Positions 208 to 6,598 of a stretch of DNA of 64,000 bases are shown here, one piece after another. The first letter of the stretch is position 1. Every line of letters begins with the position of its first letter. The notes under the pieces are model-generated. The model searched no databases and had not been told where the DNA came from. It saw only the letters and a list, made by a program, of their open reading frames with translations. The stretch covers positions 2,542,001 through 2,606,000 of the forward strand of contig NZ_CP068439.1 of the NCBI RefSeq assembly GCF_016757735.1. Direction: 5' to 3'. The DNA is from Aequorivita iocasae (GTDB taxonomy: Bacteria; Bacteroidota; Bacteroidia; Flavobacteriales; Flavobacteriaceae). The position numbers were made by a program, and so were the translations under genes.

Positions 208-227
208 TATATTTGAATATTCTCCCC
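208..227 (+). promoter_or_regulatory. Promoter -7 box and leader of the first small exported-protein gene
   Basis: TATATTTG at 208-215 matches the Bacteroidota -7 consensus TAnnTTTG. It is followed by ATTCTCCCC (219-227) and a run like TTTTAAAAA. The same arrangement precedes the paralogue at 6374 and, on the minus strand, gajA. No clear -33 TTG element is visible. Confidence 0.55.
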
Positions 228-246
228 AGTTTTAAAAATTAAAACA

Positions 247-450
247 ATGAAAAAAAATAAATTTTTATTTTTAGGGGGAGTATTTTTTCTATTTCTTACC
301 TCATTTTCACATGAGGTTGCGGAAGTCTACATCTGCAAAGGTCCACAAAGCAAGAAATACCATTATAAAAAAGACTGTAGAGGTCTTTCAAGTTGTTCTA
401 CGGATACCTATTCGGTAAAATTAAGCGAAGCTAAGAAACTGGGGATGTAA
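247..450 (+). pseudogene. Small exported cysteine-motif protein, 3' end removed at IS boundary
   Basis: The frame encodes 67 residues. A hydrophobic signal-type N-terminus (about residues 1-21) is followed by a segment with EVYICKGPQSKKYHYKK, then DCRGLSSCS and LSEAKKLG. The last Met-stop codons lie inside the IS3 element, whose terminal TG starts at 446. The intact paralogue at 6374-6598 continues from the same point with GRSLCGWED, so about nine residues including the last Cys are missing here. The Cys/His spacing resembles small zinc-ribbon-like or disulfide-stabilised secreted proteins; this is inference. The promoter region is also shared with the paralogue. The function is unknown. Confidence 0.75.
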
Positions 451-473
451 GCTTCCCTTAAAACCGAACTGTT
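446..473 (+). repeat. Left terminal inverted repeat of the IS3-family element
   Basis: Its first 12 bases (TGTAAGCTTCCC) are perfectly complementary to the right end. The match resumes as GAACTGTT after a few mismatches. Confidence 0.85.
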
Positions 474-510
474 TAAAAGTAGAATAATTATCTTAAATTT
501 AAACAGTATT

Positions 511-777
511 ATGAGACGAAGTAAATTTTCACCGCAACAGATTGCAAAGATTTTAAAGGAATTCGACAACGGAAAGAGTGTTGACCAGATCAGCCGTGAG
601 CACGGTGTTGCCCCTGCGACCTTCTATAAGTGGCGCTCCAGGTATGCCGGGATGAACACCAAGGAGCTCAAGCGCCTCAAGGAGCTGGAAGAAGAGAACG
701 CCAGGCTCAAGCAGATGTATGCCTCCCTTGCCCTTGACCACCAGATGGCCAAGGAGATCATCGAAAAAAAGCTCTAA
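511..777 (+). CDS. IS3-family transposase OrfA
   Basis: The product has 88 residues. An N-terminal helix-turn-helix of the HTH_21/IS3 OrfA type ([17 protein letters not shown], then [19 protein letters not shown]) is followed by a Leu/Lys/Glu-rich coiled coil (about 50-85). It binds the IS ends. The A7G run at 764-771 directly before its stop is a classical -1 frameshift site. After slippage the frame stays open without a stop from 771 into orfB, so the active OrfAB transposase is expected as a fusion. Both frames look intact. Confidence 0.92.
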
Positions 778-851
778 AGCCCTGCAGGAAGCGAACCATT
801 GCCAAAGAACTTATTCATTACGGCATCTGCAGGGCGTGCCGTGTACTCAAC

Positions 852-1640
852 ATGAGTAAGAGTGTTTATTATTATAGGCCGTTGCCCAAGGATGACAGCG
901 AGATAGAACAGGCCTTACAACAAAAGGCAAAGGAACATTCAGAGGAAGGTTTTTGGAAGGCCTATGACCGGTTGCGCGAAGAGGGAAAACCCTGGAACCA
1001 TAAGCGTATGCACCGGGTCTATGTGGCACTGGGGCTCCCCTTGCGCAGAAAGGTGAAGAAACGTTTGCCTGCCAGAACAAAAGAACCCCTGGAGGTTCCA
1101 AGCGAGCTCAACCATACCTGGAGCATGGATTTTGTAACAGACGTCCTAGAGAACAAAAGGCGCTTTAGGGCATTTAATATAATCGACGATTTTAACAGGG
1201 AGGCACTCCATATTGAGGTCGACTTCTCCCTGACGAGCAACCGCGTGGTCTGGGTGCTCAACCACCTTATCAATAAAAAAGGCAAACCAAAAAAAATACG
1301 GATGGACAACGGCCCTGAGTTTATCGCCAAGATCGCCTCGGAATGGAGCGAGATGCACGATATCGAGTTCAAGTATATACAGCCGGGGAAACCCACACAA
1401 AATGCGTTTGTCGAAAGGTTCAATGGGAGTTACAGAAGAGGGGTGCTCAACAAATATATCTTTGAGGATATAGATCAGGTAAGGGAGCAGACACAGATAT
1501 GGATGCACGATTACAACCATTACCGCCCGCACGACGGGCTGGGTAAAATACCGCCGGTAAAATATGCGGAACTTAATTCTCTTGGGGCTAGCCCCAAGAG
1601 AATTAAAAACAATAAGTTTGTAGAAGTATTAGAAAAATGA
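852..1640 (+). CDS. IS3-family transposase OrfB (rve integrase core)
   Basis: From the ATG the product has 262 residues, and the frame is open back to the A7G slippage site at 764-771, so it is probably made as OrfAB. An N-terminal HTH_21 region is followed by the DDE integrase core: first Asp in [10 protein letters not shown], second in RMDNGPEF, and Glu in [14 protein letters not shown]. The C-terminal [15 protein letters not shown] is typical of the IS3 family. No frameshift or stop is seen, so the element may be active. The last codon overlaps the right inverted repeat. Confidence 0.92.
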
Positions 1641-1666
1641 ACAGTTCTAATTAGGGGAAGCTTACA
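1640..1666 (-). repeat. Right terminal inverted repeat of the IS3-family element
   Basis: It starts AACAGTTC, overlapping the last base of orfB, and ends GGGGAAGCTTACA. It is an imperfect complement of the left end. Confidence 0.85.
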
Positions 1667-2121
1667 GGTTGTTGCCTTAACGCAATGTCAATGACATTAA
1701 AAGGTGGTGCAACAACCCAAGTGTGTCCGGCTTGGAATTCTCCGTCATCAACAGACCAAAAATATTTAGTTTCAATCTTTGATTCAATGGGGAAGTCAAT
1801 TGTTAAACTTCCTTTAGTTAAATAATTCCAATAGCCTTCCTTTTCAAGAATTCTGCTCAAAACAATTGAAATATCTATACAGGCACCAAGTCTACCATCT
1901 TTTTTTAATTCCTGATTCAAAATTTTCGCAATGAATGGGATTTCTTTTTTTGCTCTTTCTATATATTCAATTGAGTATTTTTTCTCATTTACATAATTAG
2001 CATACAACTCAAGGAATCTGTTGTTTTTTTGTTCTTGCTTTAGAAATTCATTAGAATCATAGAAAGCTATTGAATTGTAGTCAATGTTTAATTTTTTAAA
2101 ATGTTTTTCTAATGCGGTCAT
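1651..2121 (-). pseudogene. Transglutaminase-like (Cys-His-Asp) protein, C-terminus lost at IS boundary
   Basis: The frame encodes 156 residues, the last four (VSFP) from the IS right end. The remaining native sequence has a possible Cys-His-Asp triad of the transglutaminase-like fold: Cys in GACIDISIV, His in QAGHTWVVAPP, and Asp in NVIDIAL shortly after. The helical N-terminal half carries no known domain. The triad seems complete and the break comes about six residues after it, so activity cannot be excluded. It points at the IS from the right just as the small exported gene points at it from the left. The fold call rests on motif spacing only; function and substrate are unknown. Confidence 0.55.
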
Positions 2122-2181
2122 CTTTTTTTAAATGGTGTGGAATATGTATATACGCTATACGTATTGCGTATATATAGCACA

Positions 2182-2278
2182 TATGCGCCATTAGTTTTTT
2201 ATTAATTTCAAAAATAAAACAAACTCAAAACCCACCCAATACGAATACCGTAAGAGTGGGTTTTATATTGGGGAGAAT
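2182..2278 (-). promoter_or_regulatory. Leader/palindrome module, copy A (upstream of transglutaminase-like gene)
   Basis: Read on the minus strand it has ATTCTCCCC (2270-2278 complement), then a hairpin in which GTGGGTTTT (2256-2264) pairs perfectly with AAAACCCAC (2227-2235). An inner TACG/CGTA stem (2240-2243 with 2249-2252) follows, then a GTTTGTTTT stretch and an ATGGCGC box. The same order of elements recurs in copies B and C. It may be a structured 5' leader or a recombination site; the sequence alone does not decide. Confidence 0.5.
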
Positions 2279-2292
2279 GCACAATAAATAAA

Positions 2293-2424
2293 TTAATCTC
2301 CTTTCTTATGCTTGTGTGGCTTCAGAGATGGTGTGTTCTTCGGAGTATCCTTATTATCTCGTTGACGTCTATCGGGCTCACCGGTAGATTTCGCTATTCT
2401 TTTTCTTCCTGGTTTAATTCCCAT
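2293..2424 (-). CDS. Small basic hydrophilic protein, 43 aa
   Basis: An ATG-to-TAA frame encodes 43 residues. It starts MGIKPGRKRIAKSTGEP and ends KPHKHKKGD. It is rich in Lys, Arg, Asp and Pro and has no membrane segment. It is framed by copy A of the palindrome module downstream and copy B upstream, the same layout as its larger neighbours, which supports it being a real unit. No clear ribosome-binding site is seen, as is common in this phylum. The family is not recognised and the function is unknown. Confidence 0.45.
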   Translation of the reverse strand: MGIKPGRKRIAKSTGEPDRRQRDNKDTPKNTPSLKPHKHKKGD

Positions 2425-2514
2425 AATTTCTAATTATTAAATTATTCTACAAATAAATTTAATAATTTAAAGAGAAAATAAATCCTAAAAAATTAAGAAG
2501 TTATAAACCAAAAA

Positions 2515-2574
2515 TTAACAAACCCACCCATTACGGAAAACCGTAAAAAAAGGGAGGGGGGTATACCAAATGTC
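2515..2574 (-). promoter_or_regulatory. Leader/palindrome module, copy B (upstream of the 43-aa ORF)
   Basis: The core TTACGGAAAACCGTAA (2531-2546) forms a 6-bp stem with a 4-base loop. It is flanked by CCCACCC (2523-2529) and GGGAGGG (2552-2558), which can extend the stem with one mismatch. On the minus strand a GACATTTG box (complement of 2567-2574) resembles the -7 consensus except for its first base. TAACAAAC precedes it on the plus strand, as in copy C. Confidence 0.5.
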
Positions 2575-2598
2575 GAAGTTTTTTGTTAAATAAATCTT

Positions 2599-4326
2599 TT
2601 AATTTCTTAGACCATTCAATGTAAATCTATCTAACAATGGTGAAGGTAAACCCGCCTGTCTTAATATAAAGACGTGATGACACGCTCGCGTAACTGCAAC
2701 TAAAAATAATTTTCGAGATCTTTGAAAAGTCACTGGATTATCTCCTCTTAATTCTAGTGGAGCATTATATTGATTTTGAAAGATGATGACACCATCAAAT
2801 TCCTTCCCTTTTGCTTTATAGGTAGTCATAACATTAATTCCAACTTCCGATGCTACATCACCGGATAATTGCGCTTCAACAATTGCTCTTTGTAAAATGC
2901 CCCTTGCATTCGCGTAACATTTATTTTCAATCCAGGTTTGGGTAAGATCACGCATTATAATTTTTCCTTGATTATAAGCGATAAGATATTCTGAATGGCT
3001 TGCAAATGATTTTATTGCACCAACTGAACACGTTAACAGCTTTTGTTGAATAAATCTCCAATCTTTTGATGGATTACCAGATAATTGCATGTTTCTTAAT
3101 TCATTTATTAAATTAATGAAATATGAAACCGTTGTTCCCCCAGGTTTCTTATCCGAGTATACTTTTTCAATCCACGAATTATATTTTTTTATCTCGTTTT
3201 CTTTTCCGGTGGCGCTGTAAAAATCTTTAAGAATATTTAAAACCCACAGAAGGTGTTGTTTTTCATTAAGAATAGGTTCAAGCAAACAAGCTATCATGCG
3301 GCTAGAAAGATTCGTCTCGGTTACGTCAAATTGTACTCTATGATTTATTTCTTTTGCTCTTAAAGCCGCCGATATCATCTTTACACCTTTAGCCCAGGGA
3401 CATAATATGGCTATACTTTGAGGATATTCACCCGTTTCTCTTTTAATAGTTTCTTTAAGAATTCCAATACTTGATCTAATCCATTTATCTCTATGTTGGA
3501 CTTGAGGACTGTAAATTAACGAAGTTACCCCCTTATAAGTTCCATTTCGAGGTGTATTATTTAAAACATCGCGTGCAAAATATAAAATTTCAGAATTTGG
3601 GCTTCTATAATTTTCAGATTCCAAGGTAATTTCTATAGGAGAAAGAAATTCTTTTATACTATTAATTCGTTCGGGATTTATATCGGGTCGGTAATCAAAA
3701 ATTTGTTGGTCCAAATCACCTAAAAGAATAAGTTGAGAAATATGATTAAACAATTTAATAAATTCCCACTGCTCCGCATCGGTATCTTGAGCCTCATCAA
3801 CTATAATTAACGGGAAAGTATTTGCTAGAGTTTTTCTAATCCTATTACTTTTGACAATAATTTCTAAAGCAACTTTTGAAAATCGATCAAAAGTAATTTT
3901 GCCTTCCATGTATAGTAAATTATCTTTTTCTTTTACCCATATTTCATCATTTTCATTACGATTTAATCTCAGTGCATCCTCATCGTGAGGTGGGATTATT
4001 GTGATTTTTTTGGGACTTCCTAATAGATAGCAATGTGTTTTTATTATTTCTAAAAAGAAGGCATGAAAAGTTTGAACATATAATTGTTTTCCGAATTTTT
4101 TATGTTCTGAAAAGTTTGAAGACGACTGTAAAATTCGAGATTTGGCATTTCTCGAAAAGCTCAAAAAAAGTACTTTTTGACCTCTATTAAGATTATTATC
4201 TTCTATATATTTAAATGCCTTTGCTAATGCTATTGTTGTTTTGCCCGACCCTGGCCCACCAATCACTAGTAAATTTGTGTTACAATTTAATATTGATTTT
4301 CTTTTGAGGTCTATGTTAAGTGACAT
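2599..4326 (-). CDS. gajB: Gabija defence helicase GajB (UvrD/Rep superfamily 1)
   Basis: The product has 575 residues. A Walker A motif GGPGSGKT (23-30) opens the protein. It is followed by LFLSFSRNAKSRI (motif Ia region), IIVDEAQDTDAEQ (Walker B, motif II), LLGDLDQQIFDYR (motif III), a TTYKAKGKEFDGVII segment (motif V) and LVAVTRACHHVFIL (motif VI). These are signatures of UvrD-like superfamily 1 helicases. It begins three bases after the gajA stop, so the two are translated together. In known Gabija systems GajA is the nuclease and GajB its helicase-like partner in anti-phage defence. It is somewhat longer than the roughly 500-residue reference protein. The pairing makes the call firm. Confidence 0.88.
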   Translation of the reverse strand: MSLNIDLKRKSILNCNTNLLVIGGPGSGKTTIALAKAFKYIEDNNLNRGQKVLFLSFSRNAKSRILQSSSNFSEHKKFGKQLYVQTFHAFFLEIIKTHCYLLGSPKKITIIPPHDEDALRLNRNENDEIWVKEKDNLLYMEGKITFDRFSKVALEIIVKSNRIRKTLANTFPLIIVDEAQDTDAEQWEFIKLFNHISQLILLGDLDQQIFDYRPDINPERINSIKEFLSPIEITLESENYRSPNSEILYFARDVLNNTPRNGTYKGVTSLIYSPQVQHRDKWIRSSIGILKETIKRETGEYPQSIAILCPWAKGVKMISAALRAKEINHRVQFDVTETNLSSRMIACLLEPILNEKQHLLWVLNILKDFYSATGKENEIKKYNSWIEKVYSDKKPGGTTVSYFINLINELRNMQLSGNPSKDWRFIQQKLLTCSVGAIKSFASHSEYLIAYNQGKIIMRDLTQTWIENKCYANARGILQRAIVEAQLSGDVASEVGINVMTTYKAKGKEFDGVIIFQNQYNAPLELRGDNPVTFQRSRKLFLVAVTRACHHVFILRQAGLPSPLLDRFTLNGLRN

Positions 4327-4329
4327 ATC

Positions 4330-6132
4330 TTATTCTTCTTCAGAATTTTCAACATCCTGTTTACTAGAAAAATCAATAGGATTTATATGTTCAGGCTGCG
4401 GGAAACTATTATAAATTTCATGGAAAAAAGTAACTAGAGTTGGAGGTAAATTATTTTTGTTACACATTTCGACTAAATCAGCCGAACGTCTTTCACCTTT
4501 TTTTTGCTTTAATGCTTCAAGTGTAAAAGATTTGACTAAATCGTCAATAGGTTGTTCGTCTGGAATAAAAGGACCCGAACCAAACTCACCAACTTTTTTT
4601 AAATCCTTCAAAAAATCCCATTGAATAGTAATCGGAACTTCATTAATCAATAATTTTTCTATTCCGTTCACTGGAATTTCAGTATAGAAATCGAAAGTTT
4701 CCTGTAAAGCTTGGATTTCTTCTGGAGTTCTTTTCAAATAATCAAAAAAGGCATAGGTTTTTAATCCAATTGATTTAAAAAATTTGCCAAACTCAAGTAC
4801 GGTCCCGTCTCCCCCCGCTTCAAATATCGTAACCCCAGACAAATCAATCGGATAGTTATCAAAATCCTTTTCTAATATCTTTGAAGCAGATGTAAGCACT
4901 TCTAACTCAGTAAGACCTTCACCAACAATAACCGCATTACCTAATATAACCTCAGCTATAGAATGGCGTATCTTACGGCGATAGTTTTTTGATTTCAATC
5001 CTGACGCTAAGCTTAAATTTTTCCCTTTCATTATTCCGATTTCATCTTTACTCAAAATCATTATGTTCTGTGGATCAAATTTTTCAATCACATAGGGGGA
5101 GTGGGATGTTACAAATGATTGAGTAGTAGTATTAATCAGGTAATTAATTATTCGCCGTTGCGTATGAGGAGGTATGGAAATTTCTGGCTCTTCCATGGCA
5201 AAAATAATATTTTCCTTTTTTAATTCTGCAATAGCTGAAAGCAAAGCAAATACTAAGGTACTTAGTGTTCCATTTCCTAACTTTTGGAATGGCACTGGTG
5301 ATTGATTTATTGATGATGACATGAAAAACGCCAAAGTTTTTCTTAAATGATCTCGAGTTAATTGGGAGACATGAAGAGTTGTAGCTTTATGATTATTAGG
5401 TAGTGCAATATATTGTCCAATACGCTTTTCAATATTATCTAAAACTTTTCTAAGTGAACCAATACTATCTTCCAAAGGAGGATTTAAGTCTTTAAGTCTA
5501 CCCCTCGTCTCTTCCCAAAATTTCGGTCGCATTTCGCCTACTCTTAAGAGAATATCTAATAAACTCCCCTGTTCTAAACTTAATGCCCTGCTACCAGTCC
5601 GGATTGCTCTTAAATAAAGGAAGCCAATTTGTCTTTTCCTAAACTTTGTGAGCTCAGAAAAAACACCTTCTTCTTCATTAGGGGAATGGGAGTAAAAAGT
5701 TTTGGCAACAAATTCATCTTCTTCTTTATCATAATTTCCCACAAATTTAATTCTTAAACATTCTTGCGTATGTTCTTCATCAGCATCTTCAATTTCCCCT
5801 TCTTGTAAAATTTCCTTTTTCCCCATGTGCCAAAACTCTAAGTGACTTCTAAAAATACTTTTTAATTCTTCTGAAATATCAATTAATACAACTTCTATAT
5901 TAATTTCCACCAATTCCCCATTTTGAAGAATATACTCTCCATTATAGAAATCATATTCATCTATTGCAGAAGGACGGTTAATACGATCAGGTCCTAGAAC
6001 TAAATCTAAAGCTTCGCAAATTGTAGATTTTCCAATATTATTTCTTCCGACTAGAAGTACATGCCCATTAAAGTACAAAGTGGATTCTTTAATCCCTCTA
6101 AAATTGGATATAGATAATTTACTGACTTTCAT
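4330..6132 (-). CDS. gajA: Gabija defence nuclease GajA (OLD-family ATPase with TOPRIM domain)
   Basis: The product has 600 residues. The N-terminal SMC/OLD-type ATPase starts KLSISNFRGIKESTLYF, with Walker A GRNNIGKST (29-37). A Walker B-like AMEEPEISIPPHTQRRI lies mid-protein, followed by VTSHSPYVIEKF, the His-switch region of OLD ATPases. The C-terminal third is a TOPRIM nuclease domain: NAVIVGEGLTELEVL carries the conserved Glu, and FFDYLKR may supply a later acidic residue. This layout and the adjacent helicase identify Gabija. Known GajA proteins are sequence-specific DNA nickases held off by nucleotides and released when phage depletes them. Its minus-strand promoter appears to be the TATATTTG box at 6266-6273. 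Confidence 0.9.
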   Translation of the reverse strand: MKVSKLSISNFRGIKESTLYFNGHVLLVGRNNIGKSTICEALDLVLGPDRINRPSAIDEYDFYNGEYILQNGELVEINIEVVLIDISEELKSIFRSHLEFWHMGKKEILQEGEIEDADEEHTQECLRIKFVGNYDKEEDEFVAKTFYSHSPNEEEGVFSELTKFRKRQIGFLYLRAIRTGSRALSLEQGSLLDILLRVGEMRPKFWEETRGRLKDLNPPLEDSIGSLRKVLDNIEKRIGQYIALPNNHKATTLHVSQLTRDHLRKTLAFFMSSSINQSPVPFQKLGNGTLSTLVFALLSAIAELKKENIIFAMEEPEISIPPHTQRRIINYLINTTTQSFVTSHSPYVIEKFDPQNIMILSKDEIGIMKGKNLSLASGLKSKNYRRKIRHSIAEVILGNAVIVGEGLTELEVLTSASKILEKDFDNYPIDLSGVTIFEAGGDGTVLEFGKFFKSIGLKTYAFFDYLKRTPEEIQALQETFDFYTEIPVNGIEKLLINEVPITIQWDFLKDLKKVGEFGSGPFIPDEQPIDDLVKSFTLEALKQKKGERRSADLVEMCNKNNLPPTLVTFFHEIYNSFPQPEHINPIDFSSKQDVENSEEE

Positions 6133-6166
6133 AAAGATATTCTAAGATTAATTTCTAGATATTTAA

Positions 6167-6273
6167 GCGCCATATAGTTACTAAAATGGAGTTTATATAT
6201 AACAAACGCAAGCCCCCACATTACGGAAAACCGTAAGAGCTCAAATTTTTTAAAAGGGGAGAACCCAAATATA
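6167..6273 (-). promoter_or_regulatory. gajA promoter and leader with palindrome, copy C
   Basis: On the minus strand a TATATTTG box (complement of 6266-6273) is followed by GGTTCTCCCC and TTTTAAAAAA. Next comes the palindrome TTACGGTTTTCCGTAA (complement of 6221-6236), then GTGGGGG, GCGTTTGTTA and ATGGCGC (complement of 6167-6173). The predicted leader is about 125 nt before the gajA ATG. The first 30 bases are nearly an inverted copy of the promoter region of the plus-strand gene at 6374. Confidence 0.6.
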
Positions 6274-6334
6274 CATTTTTATTTTAAACAATTCATCCTC
6301 AGTAAATTTTGTAGAACACTAAAAAACAATTCAT

Positions 6335-6355
6335 TATATTTGAATATTCTCCCCA
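6335..6355 (+). promoter_or_regulatory. Promoter of the intact small exported-protein gene
   Basis: TATATTTG (6335-6342) matches TAnnTTTG. It is followed by ATTCTCCCC and TTTTAAAAA, the same sequence as at 208-237. It is divergent from the gajA promoter about 60 bases away. Confidence 0.55.
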
Positions 6356-6373
6356 GTTTTAAAAACTAAATCA

Positions 6374-6598
6374 ATGAAAAAAAGTAAAATTTTATTTTTA
6401 GGGGGATTGGCATTTTTATTTCTTACCTCATTTTCTTATGATGTTTCTGAGGTCTACATCTGCAAAGGACCCCAAAGCAAGAAATACCATTATAAAAAGG
6501 ATTGTAGAGGTTTATCAAGCTGTTCTACCGATACCTATACTGTTACCTTAAGCGAAGCCAAAAGGCTAGGTCGTTCTCTTTGTGGATGGGAAGATTAA
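6374..6598 (+). CDS. Small exported cysteine-motif protein (intact copy)
   Basis: The product has 74 residues. A hydrophobic N-terminus (about 5-21, LFLGGLAFLFLTSFS) suggests export. The mature part has VYICKGPQSKKYHYKK, DCRGLSSCST, LSEAKRLG and SLCGWED, giving a C...HxxxxxC...C...C arrangement. Similar short Cys/His patterns occur at the ends of bacterial exported nucleases and in small zinc-ribbon-like proteins, which gives a possible fold but no function. It is the full-length paralogue of the clipped gene at 247, and the pair forms direct repeats either side of the IS and Gabija genes. A 35-residue membrane ORF follows 24 bases downstream. Confidence 0.65.
   Translation: MKKSKILFLGGLAFLFLTSFSYDVSEVYICKGPQSKKYHYKKDCRGLSSCSTDTYTVTLSEAKRLGRSLCGWED

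Follow-up and report, generated by a model that had tools for sequence, protein, structure and literature searches.

Integrons, and above all the sedentary chromosomal ones, are the described systems closest to the arrangement considered here, combining as they do a tyrosine recombinase gene with an adjoining insertion site, unrelated cassettes that break at G|TT, cassette-specific inverted repeats and a core consensus of GTTRRRY. The DNA in question is a stretch of 64,000 nucleotides (nt) from Aequorivita iocasae (C1:2542001-2606000 within the complete 3.35-Mb genome, G000), here called the window, in which several genes of a defence island share an upstream promoter-leader-palindrome module. 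We think it probable, at about two chances in three, that this module is the promoter and leader portion of linkers that separate the cassettes of an integron-like system in Aequorivita. All of the features just listed except the full core consensus recur in this system, together with some attC-like R/L arms. The differences lie in the Aequorivita integrase, which is without the IntI-specific domain, in the core, which is GTTR and not GTTRRRY, in the integrase gene, which reads in the cassette direction, and in the promoter-bearing linkers that recur between cassettes.

Because the domain is missing and GTTRRRY is not followed, the system is not an integron in the strict sense, which by definition has an IntI carrying, around patch III, the additional domain specific to IntI (PMC9668308). 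Integrases without the insertion are not unheard of, since another account describes this catalytic-domain insertion as not fully conserved in an integron-like subgroup (PMC8138268). The window array further resembles CALIN (clusters of attC sites without an integrase), in that no integrase of either kind considered below lies beside it in this genome, but the linkers here end in an attI-like, not an attC-like, right half and carry promoter-like boxes. In large integron arrays later cassettes may likewise own a promoter (PMC8618304), whereas here one conserved promoter-hairpin unit precedes unrelated cassettes genus-wide; the same paper names the phylum among those bearing integrons. For the Bacteroidetes, one report gives Salinibacter ruber M1 a complete integron, found by IntegronFinder with IntI and attC models (PMC9024848), while the integrase here is non-canonical and resides in the Flavobacteriaceae. 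Two genome reports give no integron for a Tenacibaculum (PMC10013915) and a known resistance integron for a Chryseobacterium (PMC9366087). Literature searches, judged from titles and the openings of abstracts and with few subscription papers covered, brought up no recognisable account of such a system in the Flavobacteriaceae.

On our reading the linker would run from a first promoter box, P1 (TATATTTG), through TTCTCCCC and a hairpin with the apex TTACGG-TTTT-CCGTAA to a second box (TAnnTTTG, Pc-like), and would be closed by an attI-like site whose G|TTR end would be the cassette start. Cassettes would be inserted or exchanged at G|TT by an XerA/IntI-like tyrosine recombinase, which is encoded elsewhere in the genome and has an attI of its own immediately behind the stop codon; the next cassette would then receive its promoter from the linker. 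What can be followed at the level of sequence is a conserved linker with genus-wide spread and unrelated downstream genes, as well as attI-like sites at a subset of copies and breaks of homology at G|TT. The integrase would then act on the linker sites, both boxes are putative active promoters, and the hairpin may be a leader structure (attenuator or insulator) or an operator.

In the order of its parts, the sequence model of the module, R1, comprises TATATTTG, TTCTCCCC, the palindrome and a second box of the form TAnnTTTG, which is the -7 consensus of the Bacteroidota phylum; this second box and, at copy A, an attI-like site go with the other elements as one unit. The sharing of the module in the window, reported by a first-pass annotation, is confirmed: the three minus-strand genes that it had named are each preceded by a palindrome, degenerate at copy A and exact at copies B and C (E-values over 488 kb). 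Copy C, before gajA (6189-6273, minus strand), scores 71.9 bits (E 6.7e-10) as a member of the training alignment A2, with its palindrome at 6221-6236, TTCTCCCC at 6256-6263 and TATATTTG at 6266-6273. Copy A (2206-2288, minus strand; L050:10207-10289; 46.5 bits, E 2.7e-5) and copy B, before a 43-amino-acid open reading frame (ORF) (2499-2574, minus strand; L050:10500-10575; 44.8 bits, E 5.5e-5), both lie outside that alignment. In copy A the first box is degenerate, as is the palindrome (2238-2253), TTCTCCCC stands on the minus strand at 2270-2277, the outer arms are C-rich and G-rich and the second box reads GTTTGTTTTATTTTTG; in copy B the palindrome occupies 2531-2546. The second box lies about 22 nt past the palindrome in A and in C-like copies and is absent or unclear in B, while TTTGTT follows all three palindromes on the minus strand and ATGGCGC is found in A and C. 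Both plus-strand genes for small exported proteins likewise have TATATTTG..TTCTCCCC..TTTTAAAAA, at 208-227 and 6335-6354, within a 251-nt repeat of 85% identity.

Beyond the window, R1 was built over 84 positions from 28 copies (C among them, A and B left out), of 29 found by a palindrome pattern, L059 being omitted. It gave at least 202 matches at E<=0.01 in 25 of the 28 genomes of the genus, with 150 candidates scored per genome. In a sample of 299 genomes of the family, the 235 genera other than this one gave none, in a search that scored 15 candidates per genome under stricter filters and was weaker than the genus search, recovering 15 of the 24 G000 matches. Copies are arranged in same-strand series, with 11 of them inside 18 kb in one case (G001:C64 79071 to 96980), and the gene content of loci with such series varies between genomes. 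From the fetched loci we retained 78 non-redundant copies (98 before near-identical ones were removed), none of which lies within an ORF of at least 150 amino acids; the palindrome is in this respect not random with regard to genes, and the flanking boxes recur in other copies. The first gene after the module is on the same strand in 50 copies and on the opposite strand in 10, with none or a contig edge in 18, and start codons lie a median of 130 nt from the palindrome. As had been predicted for a cassette site, many different genes follow, some of them of defence type: 48 distinct first genes fall into 46 clusters. A family scan of 48 proteins (45 first genes, three being omitted, plus three other genes of the arrays or window) recognised families that include GajA, GmrSD, AbiTii, TIR-TPR, Schlafen/AlbA_2, a DNA methylase and a metallophosphatase, others being by eye secreted-looking or of no recognised kind.

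The recombinase gene that would serve these linkers lies in G000 at L176:11929-13065, where a repeat GCACATGTGCG..CATG|TTGTGC stands directly after the stop codon and is followed by cassettes whose ends bear matching inverted repeats; the attI is directly beside the integrase and is the insertion point of unrelated cassettes. Relatives at E<=1e-60 occur in 19 of the 28 genomes of the genus, in some as distant clades or remnants only. By eye, all 16 close-clade loci have an imperfect repeat ending ATG|TTR after the integrase stop, with a reading frame running through the site in L191, and 12 readable loci of other genera have a comparable site ending GTTR, a thirteenth being cut by a contig end. 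For distant integrases (44-49% identity) other site types follow in L195-L197 and L201 and lie farther downstream in L200 and L202, and in L198 no site could be read after the integrase. The core GTTR is present in all 28 sites read, and GTTRRRY in one of them (by eye). As to the protein, the G000 integrase, the one member compared, reaches 192 bits against TIGR02249, whose cut-off is 265, leaving profile positions 182-238 uncovered, and when it is aligned to IntI4 (2a3v), chain residues 179-247 are skipped, a region in which the query counts 26 residues; no canonical IntI scores above the cut-off in this genome. Upstream of most integrase starts in L203-L215 there is also, by eye, an inverted repeat like CGTTTCTAACGG(T)TAAAA (unclear in L206 and L208), possibly an operator.

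The genes after the integrases differ from locus to locus, 28 of the 36 integrase loci having given a first ORF and these forming 28 clusters. Five pairs were compared, and in every one the shared sequence ends at G|TT or no more than 4 nt from it, with unrelated genes on the far side. Four are pairs of integrase loci, namely those of G000 and G014 (1647 nt, 95.8% identity), L184/L194, in which homology resumes downstream of the insert, L184/L199 and L185/L186. The fifth consists of two linkers in G002:C13, 96.3% identical over 611 nt and containing R1, the second box and the site; this linker starts right after the ..AAC end of one cassette and stops at the next cassette's ACATG|TT.

A second model, R2, of 52 positions, was built from 11 integrase-adjacent sites only and searched over 52 sources (730 kb) that had been fetched for holding R1 or related sites. 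It gave 31 matches at E<=1 and, once three duplicates were removed, 19 non-redundant ones at E<=1e-3. Thirteen of the 19 start 10-27 nt after a same-strand R1 copy (R1 positions transferred by hand), and one of the thirteen is the site beside copy A (2143-2186, minus strand; 27.3 bits, E 2.1e-6, model positions 1-44 of 52). That site begins with GCATATGTGC, 19 nt after copy A on the same strand, its start overlapping the end of the ATGGCGC box, and the match ends ahead of the G|TT core, which is degenerate there (CATATT). Of the remaining six matches, L119:4072 lies behind an integrase remnant, a TTCTCCCC-hairpin variant or a palindrome-less hairpin stands before L179 and L051, L115:5880 follows what by eye is an apparently decayed R1, and the last two are L042 and L178; by eye, attI-like sites also follow R1 in L059 and several L101 copies. 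Since R2 adjoins R1 and the breaks fall at G|TT, the most fitting view of R1 is that of a promoter-leader linker which leads into an integron-like cassette site. The boxes point the same way, as 14 of the 16 close-clade integrase loci have TAnnTTTG at -25 relative to the stop (at -19 in L190, shifted in L191) and the second R1 box holds the same place before linker sites; on this ground we take the second box to be probably Pc-like and see in the first box, together with TTCTCCCC, a putative additional promoter.

Cassette ends provide a further line of comparison. Exact GTTR inverted repeats of at least 9 nt mark the ends of 14 of 627 array-locus ORFs (12 distinct), two of which are not cassette-like by eye (L045, L176 transposase), whereas 200 shuffles of partners gave 0.52 on average and never more than 3, and none of 46 core ORFs from elsewhere in the window has them; with repeats of 8 nt the count is 15 against 1.67 shuffled (maximum 7), with one of the 46 core ORFs. 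This is a firmer result than the pairing of pre-start with post-stop sequence in 43 cassettes, where the longest exact word is slightly above shuffles (p 0.003) and words of at least 9 nt occur in 4 of 43 against 5.6% of cross pairs. Fourteen places were checked for the L''/L' arms of attC, of which one lying elsewhere in L176 and one reversed attI-like site were set aside to leave 12. The best arms are those of G002 (9 nt, 6 nt from G|TT), which are clear, followed by plausible ones in L176 with 7 nt (p 0.02) and L061 with 6 nt (p 0.12); no L' partner was found at 7 of the 12 usable ends. By eye, a motif GGTAACCGTTGCACAACCCC also recurs behind cassette ends, for example at L176:14205, L119:9849 and in L101, and GGT-AACCGT is complementary to ACGGTT-TT-CC of the palindrome.

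Several observations weigh against the linker reading. The L''/L' arms reach p<0.05 on shuffling at 3 of the 12 cassette ends, one of these pairing with the palindrome, and the pre-start to post-stop duplex energy is not significant (p 0.16). In the window, copies B and C have no R2 match at E<=1 and no attI-like site. When 77 R1 copies were scored for attI arms by simple patterns that covered two types of site, 11 had both arms, 12 had one and 54 had none; the same patterns gave one full and one partial hit upstream and none full and one partial in antisense (77 each), while 2000 pieces taken at random from the core gave 32 partial hits and no full one. R1 occurs in one of the 36 integrase loci (L202), where it stands upstream of the integrase gene and not at attI. 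There R1 (G001:C43:1554-1637) and a distant integrase (243-1136) are both on the minus strand, an arrangement that would fit an integrase gene which had itself been captured. Nine of the 28 genomes have no integrase at E<=1e-60, and seven of the nine carry R1 (G008, G011, G012, G013, G017, G020 and G022). Finally, several copies show a reassortment of their two halves on either side of the palindrome, which a crossover at G|TT does not explain.

This last point bears directly on the alternative that survives best, namely that the palindrome itself is the recombination core, exchange taking place within TTACGGTTTTCCGTAA so that a cassette spans from palindrome to palindrome. Two G000 segments (1667328-1667489 and 1692156-1692317), 95.7% identical over 162 nt, diverge at palindrome base 14; the L105 and L079 copies have a common right side from the palindrome onward and different left sides; left types A and B combine with several right types (32 of 78 left and 21 of 78 right halves being untyped); and one gene present in four genomes has the same second box with different upstream DNA. 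The left side is, however, conserved in every copy, so that breaks at the palindrome can reflect the end of shared homology. Moreover, in the L065/G011 pair of the four-genome gene similarity starts at the second box instead, and the best-resolved linker pair retains the palindrome and breaks at G|TT. We therefore hold this alternative to be improbable. The annotators' suggestion of an attC-like site comes close to the mark: the same-strand series and varying gene content agree with it, but the change of genes is clearest at the neighbouring attI-like G|TT, in five of five pairs, and the palindrome as cassette crossover has in its favour a reassortment of halves at a place where shared homology ends anyway.

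The same annotation had offered a structured leader as its other possibility, of which the promoter-like boxes, the short hairpin and the unrelated genes that follow stand, while the case for an extended structure is weak. Palindrome and outer stem together have 72.6% of cells paired against 73.6% in shuffles, with the outer pairs counted as if a one-base bulge were not there; outer arms pair better with their own partner than across partners (z -2.6, p 0.003, 44 copies), with good pairing in some copies and poor in others, while the short palindrome stem is nearly invariant. As covariation of the outer stem is weak, the outer arms were not adopted as a conserved RNA stem, and the sequences do not show a conserved RNA structure that would extend past the short palindrome. 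The palindrome's own conservation within R1 is by selection, because the training copies were picked by a palindrome-containing pattern, and its role is the weakest, unproven part of our account. No Rfam family matches the module at the gathering threshold; a match to a phenylalanine leader (E 4.9) was regarded as chance.

A second alternative is a regulon, in which one transcription factor binding the palindrome would co-regulate the acquired genes and the attI-like neighbourhood would be incidental. In most of the 28 aligned copies the 16-bp palindrome is at a near-fixed distance from TAnnTTTG, its centre about 30 nt upstream of the second box; a palindrome-less box also precedes the small exported genes, and Cro/CI-type regulators are encoded near the window anchor described below. 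The TTTT spacer, needless for a symmetric operator, nevertheless points one way in all seven exact genome copies, and 13 of the 19 attI-like matches lie 10-27 nt after R1, so that a regulon appears to us very unlikely. The seven are drawn from 11 places with TTACGGN{2,8}CCGTAA in the 3.35-Mb genome: by eye, all seven with the TTTT spacer have a TAnnTTTG-like box and a pyrimidine stretch upstream in one orientation, with exact TTCTCCCC upstream of four and the most degenerate boxes at copy B and L004, and the four with other spacers are without the upstream box. Allowing up to 3 mismatches gives no enrichment of the palindrome in the window (24 found, 21.4 expected). Among named relatives the exact pattern TTCTCCCCN{8,24}TTACGGTTTTCCGTAA occurs in 19 stretches, 16 of them from Aequorivita and three from metagenome-assembled genomes (two contigs of one Leeuwenhoekiella and one Flavobacteriaceae assembly). 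No viral contig carries the exact pattern, and a plasmid search with the G002 linker gave no match.

No more favoured is a dispersed promoter-bearing repeat of the kind of a miniature inverted-repeat transposable element or spread by homologous recombination, RecA shuffling the cassettes with no site-specific recombination at linkers. The 53-bp conserved core and the tandem copies 120-150 nt apart, some promoter-only and with low-complexity repeats around them, would suit it. From RecA alone one would expect neither the G|TT breaks in integrase-locus pairs and G002 linkers nor the cassette-specific inverted repeats at cassette ends, and we likewise give this possibility very little credence. 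The first box was seen in such tandem, 120-150 nt apart and in part without palindrome, in L042/L043/L045 (G000 C1:1691985-1692268, 2725783-2725905 and 2730402-2730540), spaced by low-complexity CAATTAGCAATTAG/GGATTGTTGGA repeats.

A different driver, the L118-type Arm-DNA-binding (CTnDOT-like) recombinase, which lies near and convergent to the last module in G000 and G001, was set aside, the module (E<1e-3) being present in only 3 of 30 loci of its family and 1 of the 11 closest, with about 1.5 kb fetched on each side. The Arm-DNA-binding tyrosine recombinase of L120-L130, represented by G001:C43:189824 and ten relatives 60-86% identical, with a G000 copy at C1:3081311-3082519, stands divergent to a conserved sensor-like gene at 7 of the 11 loci. 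It adjoins the last module in G000 and G001, and in G004, G006, G014 and G026 modules occur on its contig at a distance of 11-35 kb.

With the linker reading preferred, the genes of the window can be placed. Behind copy C lie gajA (4330-6132, minus strand), an OLD-family ATPase with TOPRIM (PADLOC GajA PDLC00086, 719.7 bits; Pfam AAA_15 and OLD-like_TOPRIM), and gajB (2599-4326, minus strand), a UvrD-type helicase (PADLOC GajB PDLC00104, 506.4 bits; Pfam UvrD-helicase); an ATPase-TOPRIM GajA and a UvrD-like GajB as neighbours on one strand constitute a Gabija system. The 156-amino-acid ORF after copy A (1651-2121, minus strand), previously taken as transglutaminase-like, and the called 43-amino-acid ORF after copy B (2293-2424, minus strand) matched nothing in Pfam or PADLOC. 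On the plus strand, one small exported-protein gene (6374-6598; unit 6335-6598) follows the palindrome-less promoter TATATTTG..TTCTCCCC, and its flank up to copy C, 78.6% identical to G001 (L101) and 79.8% to G011 (L105), is the conserved anchor of the window array. The second such gene (247-450; unit 208-450, plus strand), with the same promoter and 85% identity over 251 nt, meets at 446 the boundary of an insertion sequence (window 446-1666, C1:2542446-2543666) with HTH_Tnp_1 and rve ORFs. This element truncates the gene at its 3' end and stops inside the ORF after copy A, whose 3' end runs into it; it is 93.4% and 96.7% identical to copies at C1:1662189 and C1:2726662, both of which also lie in array clusters of this genome. 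Within the leaders that precede the small exported genes (220-280 and 6347-6406), TTCTCCCC can by eye pair with early-coding AGGGGGAG/AGGGGGA. The sole Rfam match at the gathering threshold in the window is a DUF805b RNA motif (RF02914; 15270-15306, minus strand; 41.7 bits). The window array looks old and degraded, copy A keeping an attI-like site with a broken core and B and C the promoter-leader only, and the window most likely contains a decayed example of the linker with a Gabija cassette.

More tentatively, and with rather less assurance than for the linker itself, we suggest that the Flavobacteriaceae may have a distinct class of integron with an XerA-like recombinase that is without the IntI-specific domain, in which Aequorivita could have evolved a promoter-hairpin linker copied between cassettes, such that captured genes, those for defence included, would be expressed on arrival. 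The R1 and R2 models provide a sequence handle for cassette arrays that integrase- or attC-based tools may miss. If the account is true, it would explain how one genus collects and switches on genes for defence and exported proteins, would extend integron-like capture to the Flavobacteriaceae, and would raise the question of whether the IntI-specific domain is needed for the capture of cassettes.

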